In this document: positions 19,523-53,800 of the stretch, in pieces
Position numbering within the stretch: position 1 is the stretch's first letter
Layout: each line of letters opens with the position of its first letter
NCBI RefSeq assembly: GCF_964355755.1
Contig: NC_092671.1
Span: 13,372,501 to 13,436,500 of the forward strand
Direction: 5' to 3'
From: Antedon mediterranea
Lineage: Eukaryota > Echinodermata > Crinoidea > Comatulida > Antedonidae
DNA: 64,000 bases
Made by a program: the position numbers and the translations under genes
The notes under the pieces: model-generated
What the model was told of the DNA's origin: nothing
Seen by the model: the letters and a program-made list of their open reading frames with translations, nothing else
Database searches by the model: none

Positions 19523-31451
<11,929 letters not shown>

Positions 31452-31557
31452 AGATCAAAGAGCAAGGTAGTTATTGCGTTGTTTGAGAGATTGCTTTGCT
31501 TATGTTGGTAATTCAAGAAGTTATCGTCGCATTTATTTTCATAAACACGATTATATT

Positions 31558-31587
31558 TCTCCCTTTCCTTCGGGTTTGGAAAGGGAG
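31558..31587 (+). other. Stem-loop in the NOX5-A 3' UTR
   Basis: CTCCCTTTCC and GGAAAGGGAG form a perfect 10-bp stem with a 9-base loop (TTCGGGTTT), about 107 bases after the stop codon. It could be an RNA structural element in the transcript or a chance inverted repeat. No known element is recognised. Confidence 0.4.
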
Positions 31588-33559
31588 TCAGTATAATCAG
31601 CAAGTTTTTAAAATTTATTATTATTATTTAAGATAATTTATATGATAATTTGGTAGATTAAAATCAAGGTTTTTTCAAGTGATTTTTGTTAGTCGGTTAG
31701 TGTTATGTTGGGGTTTTTGAGTGTTTTTAGAACGGGTTTAATGATAGTCTAAAGATGTTGTTACTACTGACCAAAACGTTTTATAAATAACTACTAATAT
31801 TCCACCTATATAATTATATTGTGTACATATAGCTGTAATAAATTCGTCAAAAGAAGGTAAATAAGGTTTCCTAATTATAATGAAAGTTTTTGTATTTTTG
31901 AATTTATATTGACATTTATAGTATAAAGATTGAACGTTGTTTTAAGAGGAAAAAATATGCACGAGTATGAGAGTCAGAGTGATATACAGTATAGTATCTG
32001 TTATGGATAAACAGGTCTTCCTCAATTTAATATGTTTTAGAGTATATTAGGAGTAAAATATTCCTGAATGATTCTGGAAAATACAGAACAAAAAAGGTTT
32101 AACATTATCAGCAATGCAATACCGGTACTTTTAATACTGCTGTATATAGGAGTGTTTAGTAAATAATTCATGAGAAGAAGTAAATTTTATCAAATAATTA
32201 TATATAGTTAAGAATGCATTAGACTTAATATTAATTCATACCTATCAATACATTCATACATTTCCAAATATAAATATCGAAGAGTATATTAAGAACACAA
32301 TAACGTGGGTTTTGTATTTTTGATTAGATTTTAAGCGTTGATATTCTGTGCCTTTTATTTATATTATGGCATTAGCAGTGCAGTGAACGGTTATAGCTTT
32401 AATATTAGTATATGCGGGAAAGAAGAAAAGAACCTTTTCTATCAACTGTATGTTCTATTAGAAGGTTAGTTACGTCACTTAAGTACAAATGGGTTGGCGT
32501 GAGTGAGAGAAAATCAGAACAGTGTAGAAAGATATTTGACAAAACGCCAACGTCTGCCACGTTTAAGACAGGTTCTGGATTTTCTACGTAATACACGTTT
32601 ATATCAAAATATTGAAGGTTTATTTTCAATTATTATTTTATAAATAAACGGACCTAAGATATAATACTACTCGTTCATTGAGATTATACATTGGCCATAG
32701 ACCTACTTTAGTTATACAATTAAAATTAAAATTTAATAATTAATTTCGATTTCACAATGCTTTACCAAAGACATGAAATGTAACCGACAGTACAGACTGA
32801 CAGTACAGAGACATACAAAGCGACCGTATACGACATCACACAGCAACCACGCATTCAGTGAAATTGAATCCAATTCTAAACCATTATCCTTGTTCAAACG
32901 TAATTTTTACTAAAATACTAATAGAAACAATTATTCAGGCCTATCTATTTTTGTTGACAATTAATTAAATTAATATATATGATGTAAAGTTGTAATGATA
33001 TCAATAACCAACATAGATAATAAATGTAAATATGCATACCAATATTTTGCATATAGCAAAGTTTGACATACACAATGTAAAAACTATATCAACAGTGACG
33101 TCATAAGCAATAAAACAGTAACAAACAAATGCAGTAGAATCATTTTAATAGTTTAAACGATTAAAGTAATTGTTTTTATGGACTTTTTGGCATATTTTTC
33201 TTCTTTGTTTTATCAAAAAAAAAATCTTATAAATCATTAACATGCTTATCGTACAATCTATTATAAGTCAAAATTGTACGGAAGTAGATGAATAAATTAA
33301 ATTAACAAAATGTGTAAACTTTTGAATATCTTTTATAATAACAATTATTGTGTTAAATAAATATATAATCTTGTACATCATGCACGTATTTAGCATTAGT
33401 CACCTGGAATAGGCCTAAATGGCAAGATAACGATGGGTTAAGTCTTTCAAACGTTTAGTGTGGTGAGAGAAACGGTGTATATCTCCATTATAATCAATTT
33501 TGTGTACATTTTATGTAGATTATCTTACCTTTTTATAGTCTAATAATGTGTTGTTAGAA

Positions 33560-33639
33560 ATTGTTGAATGATGGTGGTCGGGTAACGAGACGATTAAATA
33601 CGTCTCGTCAACCAACCACCACCTAACCCTTCAAACAAT
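33560..33639. ncRNA. 80-nt imperfect hairpin, pre-miRNA-like or MITE remnant
   Basis: The arm starting ATTGTTGAATGATGGTGG pairs with the arm ending CCACCACC...TTCAAACAAT across about 35 positions with bulges, closing on an 11-bp region (CGTCTCGT side) with an 8-base AT loop (33593-33600). Size and shape fit a miRNA precursor, but the sequence matches no family I know and MITE remnants fold the same way. The strand of transcription is unknown. Confidence 0.25.
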
Positions 33640-34680
33640 ACATTTTATATTTAGGTTAATGTTTAAGATATGATCAAAGACTTTTTAATAGAGTGGTGCT
33701 CTTTACAATGACATATTAAACAGTTCCATTTTAGTTGTGTTAAGTATTAGTTAGGTCAAATTATTGGAGGGTACTGCTGGCGCCTCCTTTACATTTACCG
33801 CGATTTATCAAATTCGTATAATTGGAGATCTGATATTTAGTCTCATGACTATTGACGGTCATCGGGGGAACGATTGAGTGGTCTTTTAAAAAATATTGAT
33901 TTTATTTGAGTGACTGTTTATGGAAATTAAATGAATATATATGTATAGGCCTATTTTTAACAGCAAAGACAATAAATGCTTTGTAGGCTTAAAAGTGAAA
34001 CTAATTTGGTATATAGTAAGACAAATTCCAAATACTGTGTCAAATTTGAACCCAGAACATGGGATTTGTAAGTAAGAAACCAAGAAAAACACTACTAGGC
34101 CTACTCGTATACTCTATAGCCAATAAAGCACATATTAAGTGCAGGTTTACAGATAATATATTGACTTACATAACTTAATTAGCTGCTACAGAAATATAGG
34201 CCTGCATTAAAGTTCTAAATAAGTTATTTTGCTCTATCGTTGTGCCTTCCATAACACAGTTTACTTAATGTATCGTTTCTCGTTATGTACTTTTATATTA
34301 TTTTTGGTTTCATGTATAATGAATTACATTTCTTTTATGGTTTATCTAATAATATGAAATAAAGAAAAGGATTAATCCTTTGTCTTGAAACATGTTTTAT
34401 TGTATTATTATAAAATCAGAACCAATTGTTGTGTGTGCTAAGTAGGCCTACAAACTTAGTAACTTAGTGCGACAGATATAGCCTAGTTTGGTGTCGCATC
34501 GCAAATGCATTCGACCAAACAAACAAGAAAATGGTATGTCGGAATGATTTGTAGTATGAAGCAACGAAGTACCTTAGCGATTTGCATACAAGTGCTTCAA
34601 TAAGCGAAACAAAATTCCACACTTAGAAAGGTTGACAGTTCACAATAGTTCGTCTTTCGGAATGTTAGCCAGTGGAAAGT

Positions 34681-37600
34681 ATGTTCAGTTCTCATGTACA
34701 AGAATACTGCCTGGCAACTGCACTGTACAGCAGGCAGGTTGATGTCGATGAGTTCTGTAGTGCCGTGCCCTTTGATGAGGTAAGTGAACACGTTCATCAT
34801 TAAGTAGGCCTAAAATTTACAGATAGGCATACTTTTCTCCCAAATGTTCATCTTAGAAATGTCGCTCATCAGTGCTGTTAACGCCCATGCCACCTGGTTC
34901 AAATAGTTCGATAGAGGCTAAATATCAACCGCCAAACCGAAATCAATAGTAAGGCGAACATCACGCAATATCAGCGGGATACACCACCGGTATCCATCCA
35001 GGTGAATATATATAATTATAGTTTCTACTATATTGTATTGTTTGTAATTTTATAGAGCTTTTCAAGATGTTTGTTCAAGTATTTCGACAAAAATGGAGAT
35101 GGTTGGTTGAGGTTATCGAGTGTGGTTCAGTACATCGGTGAATTCGAGTCGTTGCCACCAATTAAAAAACTACGATATATTTTTGAAGTCACTGATGTTG
35201 AAGGTACGTATTTAGAATTACGTGCACAATTTTTATCTGACGCATCAAGTTATTTTACAAATAAGAATACAAAGCGCATCAGTGTTGATTAATGTGCATC
35301 GATTGCTTTATTTATGAAAACTCTTTTGTTTTAATTCCTCTAATATTGTATTGAGACCGGTGTTGTTGCATTTTACACTTGTTATCGTGGTCATCTCAAC
35401 AGTTCGTGATGACTTTTGAGTTCATAATCTGTGCTGCTTTTATAATGCTTAACTGTATGTACGGTAATACATAAATTAAACATTATCTCCAAATTCACGG
35501 ATTCCACCACAATCACGTGTAAAGTATTCTTTTGTCATAATTTCTAATACAGTAGATAAATCAAGGATGAAGCTGTACATCATTAAAGGTTACAGTGTAT
35601 TTATCCTTTTACGGTGAATTGGAGATACTTGAGTATAAGTACGCATTTCAACCCGTGTTATCTATCTAGTCAATCAAGTGCTGTTTGAACTTGCTACATT
35701 TCGCAACAATGTCAATCTTGAATCAAGTTTCTACCATTACAAATATCAAACAAATAGGCATATAATCGATATTGTAACTAAAGATAACGCACGAAGAAAT
35801 GAGTAAACCAGCATATGTGTTTAATTACCTGACTTTAATTCCGGACAATTAATATTAGTTTGGTCAAACATTCTGTATGGGTTAGAGGTCTCGCATATAT
35901 ACTAAATCCCAAAGAAGATGATTTTTGTTCTTGCCTAATCCGAAATACATTTTATACTGTATATAAACAATAACGTTCACAATAACAAAATCGACATTGT
36001 AGTTTTAAAGGAATGGTACACCGTGATATGTTCATGTATTCTTTACAGGTACTGGTCTGTTAACAATGCCTGCGCTACACAAGTATCTGAAACTGTGGGC
36101 CGATGTTCAATCGTCTGGACTTACATGTTCACAAACACACTCAGTTGCTAGTTCCATTTTCACAAGTCTTGGAAATACAAATTTAGTGTCTTTTGAAGAA
36201 GTGATCGTGAAAATAGAAGACAACAAAGCATTAATGTCTGTTATCATGAGGTAATGTACAAAATTGTTTCATTTGTAGAGAAAAGTGGAGAGAGATTAAA
36301 GCCATTTGCCTGAAAATTCACTCGAAATAAGTAAAATTACATTCTGCTCAATCTTCAAAGACGACAGATTGCCCAAAAAGTAAAACCAAACGTTTTTTTT
36401 TAGATAATGTTCCATGCTTACAACAAAATCTTTACTTTTAGTCTTCAAGAGAACCAACTTGTGTCATCCACTAAGCCGCTAGCAAATAGGAAAACTCGGA
36501 CACGCAGGTTACCATTCAAACTTCCTCGCCGTTTCTGTTCTTATAAGTATATCAGTTACAATATAAGAAAGATTTTGATGTTCCTACTGATTTTCTTGCT
36601 TAATATATTCATGACTGTCTATGGAGGATGGAAATACAGAGAAAGCAACTGGTTTGTAATTGTAGGTAAGTATAGAAGAGATTGTAGGTAAGAGATGTGT
36701 TATAAAATAAAACATGTGAAAGCCTTTTGTTGTCTTTCAAAAATAAAATGACTTATGTTTCCTCAGCTCGTGGTTGTGGGGCTTCTTTGAATCTGGCTGT
36801 TACACTGGTAATCATATTCATGTTGCGGTACTGGTGGACCCTGTTACGAAGAACTTGGATGGCGAAATATTTGCCGATGGATAATTTTCAGATGTTCCAC
36901 AAGATGCTTGGTGTATTAGTTGCGTTGTATTCAATAGTCCACACAGGCGCTCATATTGGAAATGCAGGCATGTAGTCTAACAGGCAGCAGTGTTTTTCTT
37001 AGAACAAAAAAAAAATACTACAAATAGTGGCAATAGTGGTTTGCCATAGCAATAGAATGATACACCTAGGTGTATCAATGGGAACTCGGTTAAATGAAGC
37101 GAAACTTTGCGCTTATTACTACCGGCATTATGGGAGTATGGTTCTATACGCGTTTGAAAAAAAAAATGACTGGGGTAATATAATGTTCAGCGCAACATTA
37201 GGCGCTATATAAATCCAGGATATTATTATTATTAAACGGTTGTTTTTTGGTTGTTCTCTTTTCTAGTTACAGTGGCACAATCATCGGAAAATGAACTTGG
37301 GGTTTTTGACGTGTTATTCACTACAAAAGCAGGAGTAGGTTATATCAAGCACAGTGCTTACATTACTGGATGGGTGTTATCCTTGTGTCTTTTTATTCTC
37401 GTCGTTGGATCACTGGACTTTATACGCCAATCCCATTTTCATGTAATCTTTCTTTAATTTATTTGAAATATATTTAATTAATTAGTTGTATTTATATTCA
37501 CACGTCACATATAGTGATAGGTCATAAGATTAGAAATGTACTAAGTATTACGAATCTTTGGTAATTACAATTACTTAGTCACGTAGAAAATCCCGTTTTG

Positions 37601-40600
37601 TTTATTTAATAAAAGAATTTCAACCTAGGTTATGGCAAATGAAAATATATTCACGGTTCTCTGCACTACACTTGTTACTTTAAATGAATGTCTGAACAAA
37701 CATCTAAACGTAATTGCGTCCTGTGTCCTTTTTTCTCCACTATAGATTTTCTTCTTGAGCCATCTGTTCTACCTGCCTTTTGTTACAATTCTGATACTAC
37801 ATGGGCCTAGGTTTTGGAAGTTTTTTGTAATTCCTGGAACATTGTTTGTTTTGGAAAAGATATGGAGTAGTGAGTTATTGAAGCGACTACGGTATGGATT
37901 AACTTACGCCGAAGAGGTTCATTTGCTTCCTAACGGGGTAAGTTACTGAAATGAGCCATACACACATTCTAGTCCAGTGGCCGTATTCACCAATCTCACT
38001 TAGGCTAAGGGAAAAAATTATAAAATAAATTATAATAAAATTTAAGAATTCCCTTAACAAAGGGAAACACTTAAGGGGTATTCACAAATGAGTTAAGGGA
38101 TTCACTTACCTAAGGAAAACACTTAATTTAAGGGTAAAACTTAAGGGTAAAAATAATCATAAATATTCATGAGTTGTCCCATTGTCCAATCACAGAGGAT
38201 TTAATTCCCCTATGGTCCAATCACTTTCCTCTCTAAAACTAATTTGCATATTTAAAAAAAGAGTAAGGGATTTGGGGGTTGGGAAGGATGAAGAGAAAAC
38301 TTTTGTTAAAGTTAGTCCGCCATTTTGAAATCAAAATGGCGGCCACTTACCATGGTCGAAAAAATGGCACCAAAGTTTTTCTTGTTCAATTCTGAGTCAG
38401 AAAAACGTTGGTGCCGACAATTAACATCAAAAGCCTACAAAATGACATAAGCCCCTGGATTATTCTATAGTTTTGAAATAGGACCAATTTAAGCTCAATT
38501 GTATAAACATATTACTAAAAACAAACGAATCACATTTATCGACATGGAGTTTGGGTAAGTTGTCAAGTTAATAATTATTGGCGAAAGAAGTCAACTTGTA
38601 CGGGTAAATGACGGGTTTTTTTTTGGTTTTTTTAGGTTGTTCATTTAAAGATGACTAGACATCGTAATTTTGTGTTTAATCCTGGAGACTACGTATTTCT
38701 ACACATACCGATTCTTCAGAAATATGAATGGCATCCGTTTACGATTAGCAGCTCTCCCGACGACGATGGTAATTGAATATTTAGTATCAACGATATCTAA
38801 ATCTAGACGTAATTATAGCGCAACGTAAAATATAACCTAATACTAAAGAGCACTGTGTTCCGATAATATATATGATATGGTGGATAATTTAAAGATGTTG
38901 AACTGCACCAGTTTTGAAAAGAATATGTTATATTTCAATAGGCCTATTCACAGATACGTACGCTATTTCCTTTCTGTACTATAGCATTCTTGTTAACAGT
39001 ACTATTCTTTTTCTTTAGCGACAATATCGTGTCACATTCGCACATTGGGTGATTGGACAAAGAGTTTGTACAAGTTTTTCGAGGCTCGTAAAGGAGAGCA
39101 AATGGTAGACAACTTCAGAGTAGAACAGACCGAAAAAACAACAAGTAAGTCAAATAATCCAGCTGAATCTGGTCCCACTGTTATGAGGGTTAGACGTAGA
39201 AGTACTTCCTCAATTCGTGCAACACCCACCTTAGAAAAAATAAATGAGGCCGAGAACGAACGAACCGTCACCGACGTAATACGACCGGTACGACAACCAG
39301 GAGAAGCTCGGCAAAAACCACCGGGATATTGTCAGGTAACAGGACTTTGTTCCGCTCAAGAAAAGCTTGAGGAGCTCAGAAGACAAGAAACTTTACTTAT
39401 GATTGAGGATGAGGTTCAAGAGGACGTCATCTATACTAAAAAGGAGAATGTGTCAGACCGTAGGAAATTATATGTAAGCTTAAGATAATATGATGAATCA
39501 AAGAAATTGTTAATATCAAATATCAATATGTTTAAACATTGTAACTTGACGAAATATGTGAACAATCTAAACCTGAATAAATTGAGAAAGCTTGATATTC
39601 GGTCAAAATACCTCAACAGTAGGCTATTTTGGAGATAATATTCTAAGTAGGATAATATCGTTTAACTCGAGTGTAAAATGTTAAACCATGTAAGTGGATA
39701 ATGATCTTGAACTGATCAACAAATGCTTTGAACATAATGCACAATAATTATTTATCTGTATATTGTGTAATATTGTTGTTGCAGCACAATTCAAGGGATT
39801 CGACATGGAAAAGCAAAAGTATTCGACATTCTATTTCAACGCAAACCAGTTGTGATTTAAATACCAATGAAATCAACATTGTATCGAAAATATCTGACGA
39901 TGCTGAAAAACTAAGGGTATTTTGAGCACTTATTAAATACAATTAACGTGCATGTTCTTAATGTATAGGTTATGTAACCACTGCGGTAACTCTATTTCAT
40001 TATCTTTGAATCAACTACTCTCTTCTTGTCTTTTACATCTTATTTCATTTTCTGTAGGTGTACATTGACGGGCCGTATGCAACTCAATCTTGTCGTGTGT
40101 TTGAGACCGATCACGCCGTTCTTGTCGCTACCGGTATCGGGGTTACACCATTTGCATCGATACTATACAGTATTTTACATCGCTATCGTAATTCTAAGTC
40201 AACATGCCCTTCATGCAATTATACGTGGCTAAATGGAAAACTCCGGTATTTAAACCGTTTAAAAAAGGTAGAGTGGTACTTCCGTTCTCTTGGGTCTTTC
40301 CCTTCAGATGTTTTCAGTTGGTGACACATCTTGTTTTTTATCCTTGCTGCCCTTGGAGTGGTGTTGCCCATCTCATCTTCGTCAACATTGGGTTTCCCAT
40401 TCTCATCAATTAATATGTACGAAAATATGTGTTCTCCTTACAGGTTGATTTTATTTGGATAAATCGTGACTCTAAATCTTTCGAATGGTTTGTTGGGTTG
40501 CTAACTCAACTGGAGCATCAACAACAAGAGACGGTCTTCTCAGACTTTCTCACAATCCACTTGTACATGACCTCACAACCACACAAAGATGATACTCGTG

Positions 40601-41110
40601 ACCTTGCACTGCAGATGGCCCTAGATCGCATGTGTCACCAAGATACTGGTGACGTAATCACTGGACTGAAGACAAGAACTAAAATTGGACGACCAAACTG
40701 GGAAGAGGTCAATATTCTTTTATTCTCTTTTAATTAGAAATGCTTGCTCTTGATTAATAATACCTTTTCACATCGCCTTAAACTCCAAAGTCTACACACT
40801 CCACACCACACACCATACAAAACGGCTATGTGAAAGGGGTATAATTTTAATTATACAAAATGTTAACGATGTTTGTGCTAATTTAGTAACGTTAAATTCC
40901 ATTTCTTTATTTACGTTATCTACTTGTGCCCAAGGAAACTTTCGGAATATCTTAAGTTTACGACTCTTTTTTATATAGTTGATGCTGTCAATCAAGAAGA
41001 AACGTACTGGTAAAGTTAAGGTGTTTTTCTGTGGTCCAACCGTATTGGCAAACACAATCAAGTTACACGCACAAAATTGTGGATTTTTGTTCTGCAAAGA
41101 GATATTTTGA
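34681..41110 (+). CDS. NOX5: NADPH oxidase 5 paralogue (NOX5-B) with degenerate EF-hands
   Basis: Exons: 34681-34779, 35056-35203, 36049-36250, 36442-36665, 36767-36967, 37267-37442, 37746-37937, 38636-38768, 39019-39473, 39785-39916, 40058-40267, 40444-40707, 40979-41110 (stop TGA 41108); 2568 nt, 855 aa. An in-frame TAG at 34666 supports the ATG at 34681. Intron positions and phases match NOX5-A. The haem histidines (FHK...IVHTGAH; SHLFY...LILHG), FAD motif HPFTISS and NADPH motifs ATGIGVTPFAS and CGPTVLA are kept, so electron transfer is expected. The calcium half has decayed: DKNGDGWLRLSS lacks the position-12 Glu, DVEGTGLLTMPA lacks most ligands, and the last loop is two residues short (SLGNTNLVSFEE). 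The insert between FAD and NADPH motifs is about 85 residues longer. Exon 5 ends at a GC donor. A likely poly(A) signal AATAAA is at 41115. Confidence 0.9.
36961..36973 (+). other. GC-AG intron donor of NOX5-B exon 5
   Basis: The exon ends AATGCAG|GCATGT, where the homologous NOX5-A junction reads AATGCAG|GTATGT. Both exons are 201 nt, and the next exon needs exactly this phase. The nearby GT (GCAT|GTAGTC) would break the frame. A single T-to-C change in the donor is the simplest reading. Confidence 0.75.
39019..39916 (+). other. Expanded regulatory insert of NOX5-B (exons 9-10)
   Basis: Exons 9 and 10 encode about 195 residues, against about 110 in NOX5-A exons 9-10. After the conserved WTKSLYKFFE the added part is highly charged: a basic Ser-rich patch (MRVRRRSTSSIR), then acidic and Lys/Glu-rich stretches. 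In human NOX5 the corresponding loop carries phosphorylation and phospholipid-binding segments, so this is probably a regulatory region. That role is inferred from position. Confidence 0.6.
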
Positions 41111-41339
41111 ATAGAATAAATAAAATAAATGTTTAGTATATTTTATTCTTGAATAATTTGCATGGTTTCTTATACAAAGCGGTCCTAATTGTTTATAATA
41201 ATCAAGAAATATGTGTAAAACCTTAGGCCTAACTAAAAAAAGTGAATATAAATTAAATAATTATTATAGGCCTTATTATATTGAATAAAGATTACAATGC
41301 AATGACAGAGAGATTTTTTTTTGTCCGATTTTGGCAGGA

Positions 41340-41742: not shown

Positions 41743-44700
41743 ATGAGGAATCGAACGATTTGTATACTTGCAATTGGTACGTACACGCATTTTTAATCAA
41801 ACGTTATAATGTAGACCTATCTATTGTATACTATTTAAGTAAGTTAGTTTCCAGGCTACAGTTACGATTAGTTTATTGTTTTAATGACTAAATGATGAAA
41901 GTTTTAATAGTTAATGTTATTTATACTTTGTATTAATATTGTCGGTGTCAAATACTATGCACATTTTCAAGATTACTACCGTGCACTATTCTACAAGATA
42001 CTAAAACCATATTGTAAAAATGTTTTTTACTTACAGTAATACTTTGGTTCTCATGGGTTGCATTCCCACGACCACCCAGGGTTATCAAACCAGTGAATCC
42101 AAATGACCCTACTAATCTACCAGACCAGGTCACAAAGAATGTGTTAGTAATCGGTAAGTATGTTTGTTAATACTGTAATATATTCGATATAATAATCTTC
42201 AATGCTTTTAAACCCATTACTTTTTTACATTTTTTTTTTATTAATGGTACGTACTGATTTTATCAGTGGTACCAATTTTATCTAACGGTATCCAATCCTA
42301 TTTTTGTTATTGTTTATTTGGTCTTTTTCAATATGTACATTTAAAAAAACTGAATTGGGAGACCAGGGTCGATTGAACTAAATCACTGCCGAATTATCCA
42401 ACCCCATTTCAGTTTACACCATAAAACAAATCAATTAAAAAAATGAAATGAGTACTAAATGTACAATTAATCAAAATCAAAATATAAACTTTTCTAAAGC
42501 CGATTTTCCACTAGGCGAATTTGTTCGAGCGAATCGAATGCGTCAGGTTATACGCATGCGTAGATAGGGATTTGGAAGATGGAAACATGAATACGCATGC
42601 GTATAAGCTAACGCTTTCGATTCGCGCTAACAAATTCGCCTAGTGGAAAATCAGCTTAAGAAAAGAAGATGGGCTTTTTAGGCCATATTATTGGTGGTGC
42701 TTGGTGGTGTAGTGCCTGTTATTTGCGTGATTTGTAAGTAATGGTGGCAATGATTGGCTAAACCTTTTCCTTTGGTAATAGGCGGTGGTCTTGCTGGTTT
42801 ATCAGCAGCATTAGAGTTGTCTGAAAGAGGTTTCAATGTTTCGATTAAGGAAGCCGATACTGTAGTTGGCGGAAGACTGCATACGAAAGATGTGAAGTTA
42901 CTGAACCAAACATGGCCAATTGAGACTGGTTTTCATGGTAAAATTAATAGCTAAATTACAATTTTTTTAAAGCCTACATTGGTACAGGTTTACTATATTA
43001 ACAATACCAAAACATATCTAATAGGTCTTTTTTCCGAATATACAAGGTACGATCGGATCGCCGCCATATTCAAAATGTAATTCTCGAATATGGCCTTGCT
43101 CAAAGTTACAAATTAAGCATGACCCTGTTGGCACGGCTGCCGTTAATCTATTGTTCGGGTTTTCTTATAACTATCCTCGCACTGCAGATGATGTTGCTTC
43201 TTCTAATCCGACACACTTTTAATTTCAGCATGGTTCAATAACTATTTCCAATCACATGACATTTTGGAGAGGCTTGGAGTGAAGTCCAATTTCAGAAGAT
43301 GGGAGGCTGTGGACTATATATTCAGGGACTATGAACCTGAGAGCATTTACAGCAAAGGACCATATCCATTAAATCTATTTGGTAATAAAGATTATTCCAT
43401 TATTTATTTGATCAATATTTACATAACAAAAAATAAATAAACCACCGTGGTTGAGCCACGACACGTGCCCTATTAGGGCTAATCATGAATGCATTAGGGC
43501 CTATGAAAATGTATTGAAAGTTTGAATTACATTTAGGTCTGATACACCGCAGTCCAAATATGAAACTGACCGATGCATTACACAGTGTGAAATCTCTGGT
43601 GGATCTTGCCTATTTCCAGTATGATACCATATTCGAAAAGTATGCTAATACTACACTTGGTAAGTATAAATGAACAGTACGAAAACAAATCTTAATTCGA
43701 GAATAATCCCATAAATAATGTATGTGTATATTATTACCACGTAAGTGTATTAAAATAGTCAGAATTGGTGGGTATTTGTCATGTTTAATAATTAAAAATA
43801 ATTAATTTAATCAACCAACCCATCAATGATAACATTAAATTAATTTCAATATTTTTCATTTATATTTCATGTATTTTGCAGAGGAGTGGGCTAGGGACAA
43901 AGACGTACCACAGTCATTCTACGATATACTGATGAAGCCTATTCTATCCGTGACACTTAATCGTCGAGATATCTTTAGTGCAGCCGAGATGCTAACATAT
44001 AACCAAATATACTTTTTAAGTGACTCGAGCGTAAGCATAATAGGCCGAATTCAACATTTACCTTATTTATTGATCATATTTTACCATTATAATTATCAAC
44101 AATTATTTTGTTGTAATTGTTATATCATTGACTGTTGATTTAATAACCTATATGCACTTGGACCTTTTGTAGGCTGATCATAGAATAATAACTACAAAGA
44201 ATTTCCAAGACGCTGTCATCGGACCATGGACTCAATTGTTACTTTCGTATGGGGTCCGGTAAGTAAACGAATGTTCAAAAATTTATTTTGACGATGTGTT
44301 TTGTATAGGGGAAACGATTGGTTTGCCACAGGGTGGTGGTAAGACTAAGAGGATACAAGAGGTGCTAACAAGTGTAATCTTGATAGTGCATATGTTAAGT
44401 CTAAGGGAAGCGAAATAATACACTATAAAGCAGTAGAATCCTTATCAAGGAGACACATTCGACACACAACAAAGTGTCCCCTTAATAGGTGTGTTCCCCT
44501 GAATAGTGTTGAGCCGTAATGTTAAAACATATATGGTTCTTGTTTAGCTTCACATAAAAGAAGTCCTAATTTATTTTAGTGTCTTAGAATAGGGATTCTC
44601 TATTCCTATTTGTTAATGTGCTAAACTAATGTTTTTTTTTCTTCAGAATTCAGTTAAATACAAAGGTAGAACAACTTGTTATGAATAACGATGGGAGCAA

Positions 44701-45415
44701 ATTTATTTCAACAAGTTCAACTCCAAACGAACAATTTGACCATGTTATCATGGCTGCCAGTTTGGACTCTATTCAGAATATCCTAAAATCCACAGAAAAA
44801 CAATATCATGATAATGAACAAATAAGGAATAAAATTAACTGTTTGCTAAGAAAAGTCGGAAAATTACCCATGTCACCACCGTATAAAGTAATGCGTGTAT
44901 GGTTTGACAAACAATTACAAAATAAACCAGAGATTTTAGAAACACCACATCATCATCCAATTAATCTGATTGTTCAGTATAATCTATTGGAAGAAACATA
45001 TGCCGAATGGGCAAATAGGACTGGTGGGTCTGTTTTAGAATTCCATTTATATACGTGGAGTTACGGAGACGTTTCAGACGACAGAGTCTGGGATTTAATC
45101 CGACCAACAGCAGAAGAAATATATCCAGATATAAAAGATTTTAAAATTTTAGCCTACCATGTACATTCTGCAAACGATTTTCCTTCGTTTGAAATCAATA
45201 CACATCAGTTCCGACCTACTGTAACTTATCCAAAAGAGTGCGAATTGCCGAATCTGTCTTTTGCTGGTGATTGGCTGTACACTGATTTCCCATCGGCACT
45301 GATGGAAAGAGCTGTTACCACTGGCAGGCAAGCAGCAAATCATGTATTATTGTCAGAAGGTGTTAGGCAGTCAAACATTGTATCTATCAATTTGGACGGA
45401 CCAGGAATTGTGTAG
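41743..45415 (+). CDS. FAD-dependent oxidoreductase, phytoene-desaturase/amine-oxidase type
   Basis: Exons: 41743-41776, 42037-42153, 42782-42937, 43229-43381, 43537-43659, 43882-44030, 44173-44258, 44647-45415 (stop TAG 45413); 1587 nt, 528 aa. Residues 1-21 are hydrophobic after a short basic start (MRNRTICILAIVILWF), a signal peptide or anchor. The dinucleotide fold is clear: VLVIGGGLAGLSAALEL with a downstream GGRL. ETGFHAWFNNYF and the C-terminal AGDW...P..LMERAV...AA pattern match FAD-dependent desaturases (plant PDS, bacterial CrtU). The substrate cannot be read; a carotenoid, other isoprenoid or amine is possible. The family oxidises C-C or C-N bonds with FAD as acceptor. The last exon is 769 nt. 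The start is only 633 bp after NOX5-B. A poly(A) signal AATAAA lies near 45727. The animal-lineage role is unknown to me. Confidence 0.85.
42490..42667. mobile_element. MITE with about 45-bp inverted repeats in intron 2 of the FAD oxidoreductase gene
   Basis: The left text GATTTTCCACTAGGCGAATT recurs as reverse complement near 42632-42652, and complementarity extends inward through CGAATCGAA...GCGT and outward to CTTTTCT / AGAAAAG. The middle has two CGCATGCG copies. No coding content. The element is wholly intronic and should not affect the protein. Confidence 0.75.
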
Positions 45416-50800: not shown

Positions 50801-53800
50801 TGTTTTTACATTATTTTTTTCGATCTACTGTCCCACAGGTTCTTAAAACTACAATATGATTCTAGATACTCAAACAAATTATTCTTAAAATTCAACGAGT
50901 CTTCCATGAAAACTGGTTTACTGAGAGATAATATATCAAAATTTAATTCAACTTTATCATAACCAATCACCTAATATTTTCACATTAAAATTAAAGGCCT
51001 ATATTACGTGGCACACGCTCAACAAATCAATATAGGTGAACCCAGAACAAAAGTAAAAGAATTAAGATAGAAGCATAGACCTATACGATTTAGGACTATT
51101 AAAATCCCATGGTTGTAGGCCAATTTCCTGTACCGTATCAGTGTTATAAGCCTACTGAACGCATAAAACTGACAGGTACAGTAGAATTGTAGATATTCGT
51201 CACATTGAAAATTGAATGGTAGTGAAACCTTTAAATCTATTGACCAGCCACTGCTGGTATTATTGCCATTATATAGGGCTAACATAAAACAACAATTAGC
51301 AGATAGTTAAATAAACCTTCAGAAACAGTGAAACTGTATAGAAATAGAAGGACTCATTAGTGAAATGTCTAAAATTGTGCCATTGTGTCCCTCGAAGAGC
51401 GACTCAAGTAATGTGTGAGCGTTCAGTGGGCGCCAGAAATTAGAAAATATAATTCAATATTTATTGGCGATTAATATCGCGTTTCGTATCGTCCAAGTTC
51501 GCGGAATAAATGAGTCACTTTGTAACTTTATGTCCAATAGAAGGTTAAGCTCTAAAAAAACCAACGGCGCTAACCTTTGCTTGCCAATCTGGAACGAATT
51601 TATTTTCCATTGGTCATAAATCCCGTAGAACGAAAAAGACAAATTAACGATCTGTACAACACAATACAGCACTATCTCAATATAAACTTTGAATTTCATT
51701 TGCGACAATAAAATGGAATGGTAATGATGTATTTTATACCTAAATAATTGACTTTTTTTAGAAAGCATCAAGGGTAAACGTGTACTGATCACGGGAGGCA
51801 GTAGTGGTATCGGTGAAGCAGTGGCTTATAAGTTTTGCAGCTTAGGAGCAAAAGTGTTGCTGACTGCTCGTGGCGAAGCAAGATTACAAGAAGTAAAGTT
51901 ACATTCACCCTTGTTCCGGAACGGAAGACGGCGCCGTTTTGTAGAAAACCATCGTCTTTCGTTCCGTGAAACGCAGCAATTGTCCAGTTAGTTTGAATTA
52001 ATATACTGTGCCAATTTATAAATCAGATTAATGATTTCTGTTATTATTATGCAGGAAAATATTTATTTATAAAAGTTGAGGAAAAAAGGAATGTTTTTAC
52101 TTTAATATTCGTAAATAAAGTTTAGTCATCGGTGGTTATTTTTTTGTCCAAGAACAAGATGGAAAATGTCCAGACCTCAGAAGCAAGGGTCATTTAAAAC
52201 AAATAATTGTTATTGTGTGATGGCCAGTGTCATGTTTACACGGTCCCAGTAATTTTATCATGCGTATAATTCTTTTTCATATTTGAAGGCTGTAAAACAA
52301 TGTAAAATACTGGGCGCCGAAGCTGCGTATTACCTACCGCTTGATATGGCAATACCAAACAACACGAGAAAATTAGTAGACGAAGCTGAAAGAAGATTTG
52401 GCGGCATCGACTATCTTGTCTTAAATCACGTCATACCATACAAATTTGAATTCTGGGAAGGGGACTTGGAATACCTTGACCGAACTATGACGGTAAACTT
52501 CGCAGCGTATGTTGCGTTGGCAACGTTTGCAACACCGGTTCTTCATCGGAGCAAAGGGAGGATAGTGGTTGTATCGTCATTATCTGGTGATTACATTTCT
52601 ATGAAAATATTAAATTATTAATGATATGCACAACAGGTTGTTGGCTCCCATATAATCTGTTTAAGCCAGAGTCTAGACTACTAAAGCTTGGTTCCCACTA
52701 GAACGTAACGCAAGGACGTAAACGCAACGCAAGCGTTTTAACCAATGTCAAGCGAAGTTATATACAGTTAGCAATCACAAGCGAATAAGCCATCGCTTGT
52801 GATTTTGGTCAATTCACTTGCGTTGCGTTACGTCCTTGTGTTGCGTCGCTAGTGGGAACCAAGCTTTAGAAACCAATCTTACTGCTTGAAGATACAGATG
52901 TACAAACTATACAACGCATATGATATGTAGTGCACCTCTATAGCTTGGTTCCCACTAGAACGTAACGCAAGGACGTAAACGCAACGCAAGCGTTTTAACC
53001 AATGACAAGCGAAGTTATAGACAGTTAGCAATCACAAGCGAATAAGCCATCGCTTGTGATTGGTTAATTCACTTGCGTTGCGTTACGTCGTTGTGTTGCG
53101 TCGCTAGTGGGAACCAAGCTTATGGTGAAACTGCAGTGACAAATGCATGTAAATTGGTTTACTTTACAAGTGGGTGGTATTTATATATTGTACTACGATG
53201 ATAATACATAATATAACCTTTAATCTTTTACCATGTTTACAGGAAAGGTACCACTTCCGCGTGTAGCCGCATACAGCGCATCTAAGTTTGCTATAAATGG
53301 GTTTTTTGGTGCATTACGTCAGGAGCATAAAATGAAAGGAATTGACGTATCTGTGACGCTTTGCATTATAGGTAAAAATATTTTTTGACATTCACTGCAC
53401 ATTAATCATTTTGATGACGATAGTGATACTGATAATGATTATTGATATGGCAATGACAATTGATGATAATGATGATGGTGATAATGACGCCACCCAGTAA
53501 TAGTGACAATGATGACGGTGATGATAATAGTATGATAACAGACAATGACGACACAGTAACTATAACTATAATTACACTATACTATCCTACTATAGTACTA
53601 TACAGTAATACATTTCTGAAACTTACAACATAAACTATTTTCTCTAGGTCCTGTCGCAACCGAATCAGCACTGACAAGTTCCGCCGGTTTCGTTGATAAA
53701 CGCATCTTTTTCACGTCATCTTCTGATACAGCGTATAAGATCGTAGAAGCAGGTAATTTACGATGGCGTGAGATTCATTATCCAAAGTCTTTAACGATAT

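Follow-up and report, generated by a model that had tools for sequence, protein, structure and literature searches.

A NOX5 duplicate with non-canonical EF-hand loops beside a canonical sister gene in the crinoid Antedon mediterranea

In animals, NOX5 and DUOX are the usual calcium-gated oxidases, and the locus described here raises the question whether a NOX5-type enzyme can keep its EF domain and yet leave calcium gating. In the genome of Antedon mediterranea (354 Mb, 18 contigs), we analysed a window of 64,000 bp (C2:13372501-13436500) that revealed two NOX5-type genes, both on the plus strand and arranged head to tail. An earlier note, made from the DNA letters, had described a loss of EF-hand calcium ligands in the interval 34681-36250, which corresponds to exons 1-3 of NOX5-B and thus to its EF domain. 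Such an adjoining sister pair, with the same intron phases and with loops that are canonical in one copy and not in the other, amounts to a natural experiment for telling the switch parts of the EF domain from its scaffold parts. The features are compiled in Table 1.

Table 1. Location of the NOX5 and DUOX features (positions without contig name refer to the window)
Feature	Position	Strand	Content
NOX5-A	19530..31451	+	13 coding exons, 769 aa; canonical EF2-EF4; tandem sister of and reference for NOX5-B
NOX5-B	34681-41110	+	13 coding exons, 855 aa; complete gene model
NOX5-B exon 1	34681..34779	+	start codon; calpain-like EF1 loop ALYSRQVDVDE (34720-34752)
NOX5-B exon 2	35056..35203	+	EF2 loop DKNGDGWLRLSS (35086-35121); opening part of EF3
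NOX5-B exon 3	36049..36250	+	remainder of EF3 DVEGTGLLTMPA; shortened EF4 SLGNTNLVSFEE (36165-36200)
NOX5-B exon 4	36442..36665	+	longer basic linker, preTM1, first transmembrane helix
NOX5-B exons 5-7	36767-36967, 37267-37442, 37746-37937	+	heme-binding transmembrane domain; His269, His283, His287, His356, His369
NOX5-B exons 8-9	38636-38768, 39019-39473	+	FAD-binding domain, HPFTISS; long insert begins; FAD_binding_8 75.4 bits
RRRSTSS motif of the NOX5-B insert	39192-39212	+	
NOX5-B exon 10	39785..39916	+	end of the FAD-domain insert
NOX5-B exons 11-13	40058-40267, 40444-40707, 40979-41110	+	NADPH-binding domain, C-terminal Phe, stop; NAD_binding_6 100.7 bits
NOX5-B CXXC	40205-40216	+	in the region of exons 11-13
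NOX5-B docking segment REFBD	40591-40662	+	D774 and D794
NOX5-C	C6:20549112-20557586	+	12 exons, 918 aa; third NOX5 paralog
DUOX-1, DUOX-2, DUOX-3	C6, about 2.37-2.42 Mb	minus	trio of DUOX genes

The reading frame of NOX5-B revealed neither stops nor frameshifts over its 855 codons, all 13 exons can be spliced, and its intron phases equal those of NOX5-A, exon for exon. An in-frame stop lies directly upstream of the start codon, and an AATAAA follows a few bases 3' of the stop codon. Intron 5 carries a GC donor (36968-36969) and is of the GC-AG type, while the other introns of the NOX5-A and NOX5-B models use GT. Of the aligned residues, the EF domains of the two proteins have 38 of 150 in common, the transmembrane domains 94 of 238, and the dehydrogenase domains 179 of 369. 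Neighbouring reading frames in the window were identified as a flavin amine oxidase (44630-45415; PF01593, 58 bits) and a short-chain dehydrogenase (52253-52621; PF00106, 57 bits).

The NOX FAD domain was matched at no fewer than nine loci of the genome, i.e., at least at NOX5-A, NOX5-B, NOX5-C, three DUOX genes, and three NOX2-like genes. The latter stand in a row on contig C7 (about 23.14-23.23 Mb) and are called NOX2-like by sequence resemblance alone. In an unrooted tree of six sequences (489 columns, with a piece of human DUOX1 that stops within the FAD domain), NOX5-A and NOX5-B were sisters (SH-aLRT/UFBoot 98/94), and the three Antedon NOX5 proteins together with human NOX5 were separated from csNOX5 and human DUOX1 (95.1/76). 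The placement of NOX5-C relative to human NOX5 received a low support of 39.4/48.

For the loops, human NOX5 (PDB 6sz5, 8u7y, 8u85-8u87) served as comparison sequence, to which the N-terminal domain of NOX5-B aligns from EF1 onward. The EF-hand pattern PROSITE PS00018 matched three times each in NOX5-A and human NOX5, twice in NOX5-C, and nowhere in NOX5-B. Pfam EF-hand_1 scored 70.4 bits in NOX5-A, with three stretches, and 15.0 bits in NOX5-B, with none passing the cut-off of 25.4; the best Pfam EF score for the N-terminal domain of NOX5-B was 24.0 bits (cut-off 25). NOX5-A thus does carry the three canonical loops that had been ascribed to it, namely DTDGSGTITLDE, DVDGSGQIDKTE, and DTDASGSISFDE for EF2, EF3, and EF4. 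The three loops of NOX5-B also lie and read as claimed. EF2 (DKNGDGWLRLSS, aa 44-55) retains D1, N3, and D5 and has no acidic residue at 12, to which Arg at 9 is to be added, while EF4 (SLGNTNLVSFEE, aa 122-133), shortened by two residues, retains Glu at 12 and has lost positions 1 and 3 and Gly at 6. For EF3 (DVEGTGLLTMPA, aa 80-91, interrupted by an intron, 35194-36074), the earlier note had listed ligands 5, 9, and 12 as lost. This was overstated, since the Thr found at both 5 and 9 is permitted by PS00018; clearly lost are position 12 (E12->A), as listed, and additionally position 3 (D3->E). In NOX5-C, acidic or oxygen-bearing ligands are in place in EF2-EF4, and its EF2 loop DTDESGGISLCE fails PS00018 with its ligands present, owing to Gly at 7. 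Position 12 is acidic in one of three loops of NOX5-B and in all three of NOX5-A, NOX5-C, and human NOX5. Canonical EF2-EF4 loops, by which the calcium-gated NOX class is recognised, number three of three in NOX5-A and in human NOX5 and none of three in NOX5-B. The calcium-independent NOX1-4 class, defined by having no EF region, does not accommodate NOX5-B either, as its exons 1-3 carry an EF-derived domain. To judge from the sequence, NOX5-B is a NOX5 paralog by descent that by its loops lies outside the calcium-gated class.

EF1 of NOX5 is described in a passage of PMC9421330 as a calpain-like loop with ligands at 1, 4, 6, 8, and 11. Compared with NOX5-A, this loop of NOX5-B retains A1, D8, and E11 and has lost D4, and thus keeps two of the three acidic ligand positions of its sister. 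EF1 is a possible residual non-canonical calcium site, and weak calcium binding through EF1 (D8, E11) together with EF2 (D1, N3, D5) is conceivable as well, so that, with EF1 partly kept, calcium binding cannot be called nil. A residual or shifted sensor, which would bind calcium through EF1 and EF2 at higher calcium, or bind magnesium, and confer low-sensitivity calcium gating, could draw on these residues, and human EF1, as described in part of PMC7317449, is non-canonical but binds calcium. We nevertheless regard such a sensor as unlikely, since E12 of EF3 is gone, EF4 is without positions 1 and 3 and two loop residues, and the EF3-EF4 C-lobe damaged in this way is the one that drives the human switch according to the same source. 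The loss of ordinary calcium gating, as far as EF2-EF4 are concerned, is well supported at the level of predicted protein sequence.

A further rival is an artefact of the gene model, in which the real NOX5-B mRNA would use different N-terminal exons whose loops are canonical. Acceptor-like AG dinucleotides directly before the start codon leave room for a 5' untranslated exon. We searched all six frames of the window, in stop-to-stop stretches of at least 15 aa, with an EF-unit HMM (human units in register) and PS00018. Only exons of NOX5-A were matched (loops split by an intron escape the pattern), and no alternative canonical EF exon for NOX5-B was found; exons of that kind had been named beforehand as evidence that would overturn the proposed loss. 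A tblastn search with the EF domains over positions 31452-41200 revealed no alternative EF exons either. Since the exon phases of NOX5-B are, moreover, those of NOX5-A, an artefact of the gene model seems extremely improbable.

The change is not confined to the ligands. Positions invariant among NOX5-A, NOX5-C, and human NOX5 were used as reference, with gaps counted as lost. The EF domain of NOX5-B kept 23 of 75 such positions, compared with 42 of 71 for its transmembrane and 111 of 144 for its dehydrogenase domain (Fisher test: EF versus dehydrogenase p = 3.7e-11, EF versus transmembrane p = 0.0008). A leave-one-out comparison gave values for NOX5-A, NOX5-C, and human NOX5 of 0.84, 0.74, and 0.83 at non-ligand EF positions and 0.86, 0.78, and 0.84 in the dehydrogenase domain. 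A loss specific to ligands was considered as well and found unsupported, the ligands being kept at 3 of 11 positions versus 20 of 64 other EF positions (Fisher p = 1). The maximum-likelihood branch of NOX5-B measured 2.87 substitutions per site in the EF domain, a saturated value obtained from four sequences, three of them from one genome, versus 1.02 in the transmembrane and 0.72 in the dehydrogenase domain. For NOX5-A, NOX5-C, and human NOX5, the branches were 0.00, 0.48, and 0.27 in the EF domain and 0.16, 0.45, and 0.29 in the dehydrogenase domain. Proportional branch lengths were rejected with all four sequences (2dlnL = 55.4, 8 df, p = 3.7e-9) and not rejected without NOX5-B (p = 0.24), while the rejection persisted when NOX5-A, NOX5-C, or human NOX5 was dropped instead (p = 8.3e-7, 3.1e-9, and 8.4e-6, respectively); the gain in BIC of the unlinked model was small (11144.5 vs 11147.9). 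NOX5-C and human NOX5 revealed no EF-domain shift like that of NOX5-B. Altogether, the EF domain of NOX5-B as a whole is altered in constraint. The claim that ordinary calcium gating had been lost stands for the sequence of EF2-EF4; NOX5-B does not, however, present an otherwise conserved sensor from which ligands alone were lost, as the whole domain is accelerated.

Such a rate might also be expected of a decaying duplicate en route to loss, with its regulatory half freed of constraint, and the one GC-AG intron and two altered glycines (see below) would fit with this. At positions where NOX5-A, NOX5-C, and human NOX5 share a large hydrophobic residue in the EF domain, however, NOX5-B keeps 35 of 44, at a base rate of 0.386 (p = 3.5e-8). 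Shared acidic positions are kept less often, at 7 of 21, yet still in excess of a base rate of 0.131 (p = 0.014), which speaks against the calcium-blind reading set out below. The acidic fraction of the EF domain is 13% in NOX5-B, 23% in NOX5-A, and 20% in NOX5-C. From these residues, the EF domain of NOX5-B is judged not to be in free drift. AlphaFold2, applied to single-exon translations with the NOX5-A exon as the only other row, predicted a retained helix-loop-helix for exon 3 of NOX5-B (mean pLDDT 82.9) and a weaker model, with helices present, for exon 2 (mean pLDDT 73.1). With the exon-3 model, nine of the first ten Foldseek matches were EF-hand proteins, yet none of the 183 matches reached E <= 0.001. 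Decay is rendered very unlikely by this hydrophobic skeleton, by the dehydrogenase invariants retained, and by a frame that is open throughout, with every exon spliceable and an AATAAA after the stop.

The earlier note had called the catalytic half intact, which our analysis largely bears out. Pfam domains for the ferric reductase (40.4 bits), FAD_binding_8 (75.4 bits), and NAD_binding_6 (100.7 bits) all scored above cut-off, and NOX5-B retains the histidines corresponding to human 268, 282, 286, 356, and 369, among them the heme-ligand candidates, as well as the FAD motif HPFTISS and the C-terminal Phe. The description falls short at two glycines of nucleotide-binding motifs that are Ala in NOX5-B, with GPYA in place of GPYG and ATGIGV (ATGIGVTP) in place of the GAGIG[VI] of NOX5-A, NOX5-C, and human NOX5 (40058-40267). 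These two changes may alter activity, cofactor use, or rate. The linker between EF4 and the membrane (36442-36665) is longer and basic in NOX5-B (NRKTRTRRLPFKLPRR) and lacks the SAAxWL segment common to NOX5-A, NOX5-C, and human NOX5; the human linker is basic, too. The FAD-domain insert, counted from WTxxLY to IDGPY, comprises 178 aa in NOX5-B, 93 in NOX5-A, and 239 in NOX5-C, where it is basic and very long. We considered the NOX5-B insert with its RRRSTSS motif as a replacement phospho-switch and dropped the idea: the insert of NOX5-C, whose ligands are canonical, is longer still and has basic sites of its own, so that insert length is no evidence for a replacement switch.

Both REFBD aspartates, equivalent to human D638 and D658, are retained in NOX5-B. 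Passages of PMC7317449 report that mutants of the docking aspartates in csNOX5 are virtually inactive and that the human EF domain on its own is unfolded in part until calcium orders the C-lobe, which then binds the dehydrogenase domain. The inactivity of these mutants and the retention of the aspartates suggest that the docking contact is still used in NOX5-B. The dimer-contact CXXC is retained as well (C704, C707) and is also present in NOX5-A and NOX5-C. It forms part of an insert described as unique to NOX5 orthologs, and in human NOX5 it is one of the contacts that hold the dimer together (both according to sections of PMC11088703). Retention of CXXC is compatible with a heterodimer of NOX5-A and NOX5-B, in which the latter, as a calcium-blind or weakly active subunit, could act as partner or damper of its sister; the tandem position makes co-expression possible, and the GPYA and ATGIG changes could weaken catalysis. 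But CXXC serves homodimers as well, and its retention thus does not favour a heterodimer, while the dimer-interface residues of the FAD domain are not conserved among NOX5-A, NOX5-B, and NOX5-C, so that this role appears quite unlikely.

The reading that we prefer, with moderate confidence, is that NOX5-B, a tandem duplicate of NOX5-A that looks functional, has abandoned calcium gating, its EF domain serving as a calcium-blind scaffold. In human NOX5, according to passages of PMC11088703, calcium causes EF3-EF4 to open, REFBD to be displaced, and preTM1 to become looser. In its calcium-free state the EF domain inhibits the enzyme, and its removal leaves an enzyme with calcium-insensitive, low constitutive activity. 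In NOX5-B, the EF domain would still fold and pack on the dehydrogenase domain as scaffold, while calcium would no longer drive the conformational change that frees the inhibitory contacts of REFBD and preTM1. We infer a calcium-blind scaffold because the C-lobe loops are unlikely to bind calcium in the usual way and the docking aspartates are kept; the two features together predict an EF domain that is folded, docked, and calcium-blind. Activity would then be calcium-insensitive and low at base, like that of human NOX5 without its EF domain. Alternatively, NOX5-B might have gained another input, either through phosphorylation of the FAD-domain insert, which in human NOX5 increases calcium sensitivity (PMC11088703, in part), or through pairing with NOX5-A via CXXC. 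The enzyme may accordingly be constitutive, under another signal, or acting with NOX5-A, as had been proposed for it before.

The DUOX genes of the same genome offer a possible parallel. DUOX-3 revealed two canonical loops, DKDNSGTVSFRE and DVDHSGMLTREE, while neither loop of DUOX-2 (DKENFGTISFRD, DIGRTGTLSREE) or of DUOX-1 (RNREEETISFRE, DVTKSGQLGREQ) fits PS00018. Key positions are missing in both loops of DUOX-1; the losses in DUOX-2 are milder, one loop having Glu at 3 together with Phe at 5 and the second having Gly at 3. All three genes contain catalytic and C-terminal motifs, as well as exons that we take to be peroxidase-like from their motifs. Like NOX5-B, DUOX-1 and DUOX-2 are tandem duplicates without a PS00018 loop whose catalytic motifs look intact. 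Among EF positions common to DUOX-3 and human DUOX, DUOX-1 kept 33 of 45 and DUOX-2 32 of 45; for core positions, the counts were 117 of 138 and 114 of 138, respectively. The domain-rate test, EF versus core, revealed no significant difference (p = 0.40), so that in DUOX the loops changed and not the domain. Apart from the loops, the EF region of DUOX-1 and DUOX-2 is conserved to roughly the same degree as the core, whereas in NOX5-B the whole domain moved. Only tentatively do we propose that calcium gating was lost independently in NOX5-B and in DUOX-1/DUOX-2, each time next to a canonical sister and with the EF fold kept. If so, EF-hand erosion after local duplication would be a repeatable route to calcium-blind oxidases, which could then arise repeatedly by erosion and not by domain deletion, unlike the calcium-independent NOX class, for which a single loss of the whole domain has been proposed.

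Compared with known systems, NOX5-B agrees with human NOX5 in domain order, catalytic core, heme-candidate histidines, CXXC, and REFBD aspartates, and differs in EF2-EF4, which are canonical in the human protein, and in its longer preTM1 linker; a passage of PMC11088703 places the human insert at residues 480-515, with limits other than those used for the 178 aa of NOX5-B. Calcium insensitivity is expected both for NOX5-B and for NOX5-epsilon or engineered NOX5 without EF domain (PMC11088703, in part), but there the domain is absent, while in NOX5-B it is present and apparently folded. An EF fold that is predicted to persist with an incomplete set of calcium ligands is also described, in the relevant passages, for EF4 of plant RBOH (PMC9421330) and for the third helix-loop-helix of DUOX (PMC1940245), though in these families the other EF-hands stay canonical, unlike in NOX5-B. 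Among echinoderms, two NOX5 are mentioned for sea urchin in a passage of PMC1940245, which also notes rare EF exceptions for DUOX, and a table in PMC9524095, as read, counts three NOX5 in sea urchin and six in sea star; the passages concerned in both papers contain no statement on the EF loops of these copies. According to parts of PMC9421330, most animals bearing NOX5 have one such sequence, and NOX5 is duplicated in tardigrades; in some NOX5 of flatworms and tardigrades, EF1-EF2 have been lost and EF4 is mutated, so that it probably does not bind calcium. In the literature surveyed, judged by titles and abstract openings, no similar NOX5 case was found beyond this remark. As in NOX5-B, some EF motifs of these proteins no longer fit calcium binding; in NOX5-B, compared here with their description and not their sequences, EF2, EF3, and EF4 are all non-canonical and EF1 is partly kept. 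Eroded EF-hands in NOX5 thus have a direct precedent in tardigrades and flatworms, and what the Antedon genes add is the test within one genome and the parallel in DUOX.
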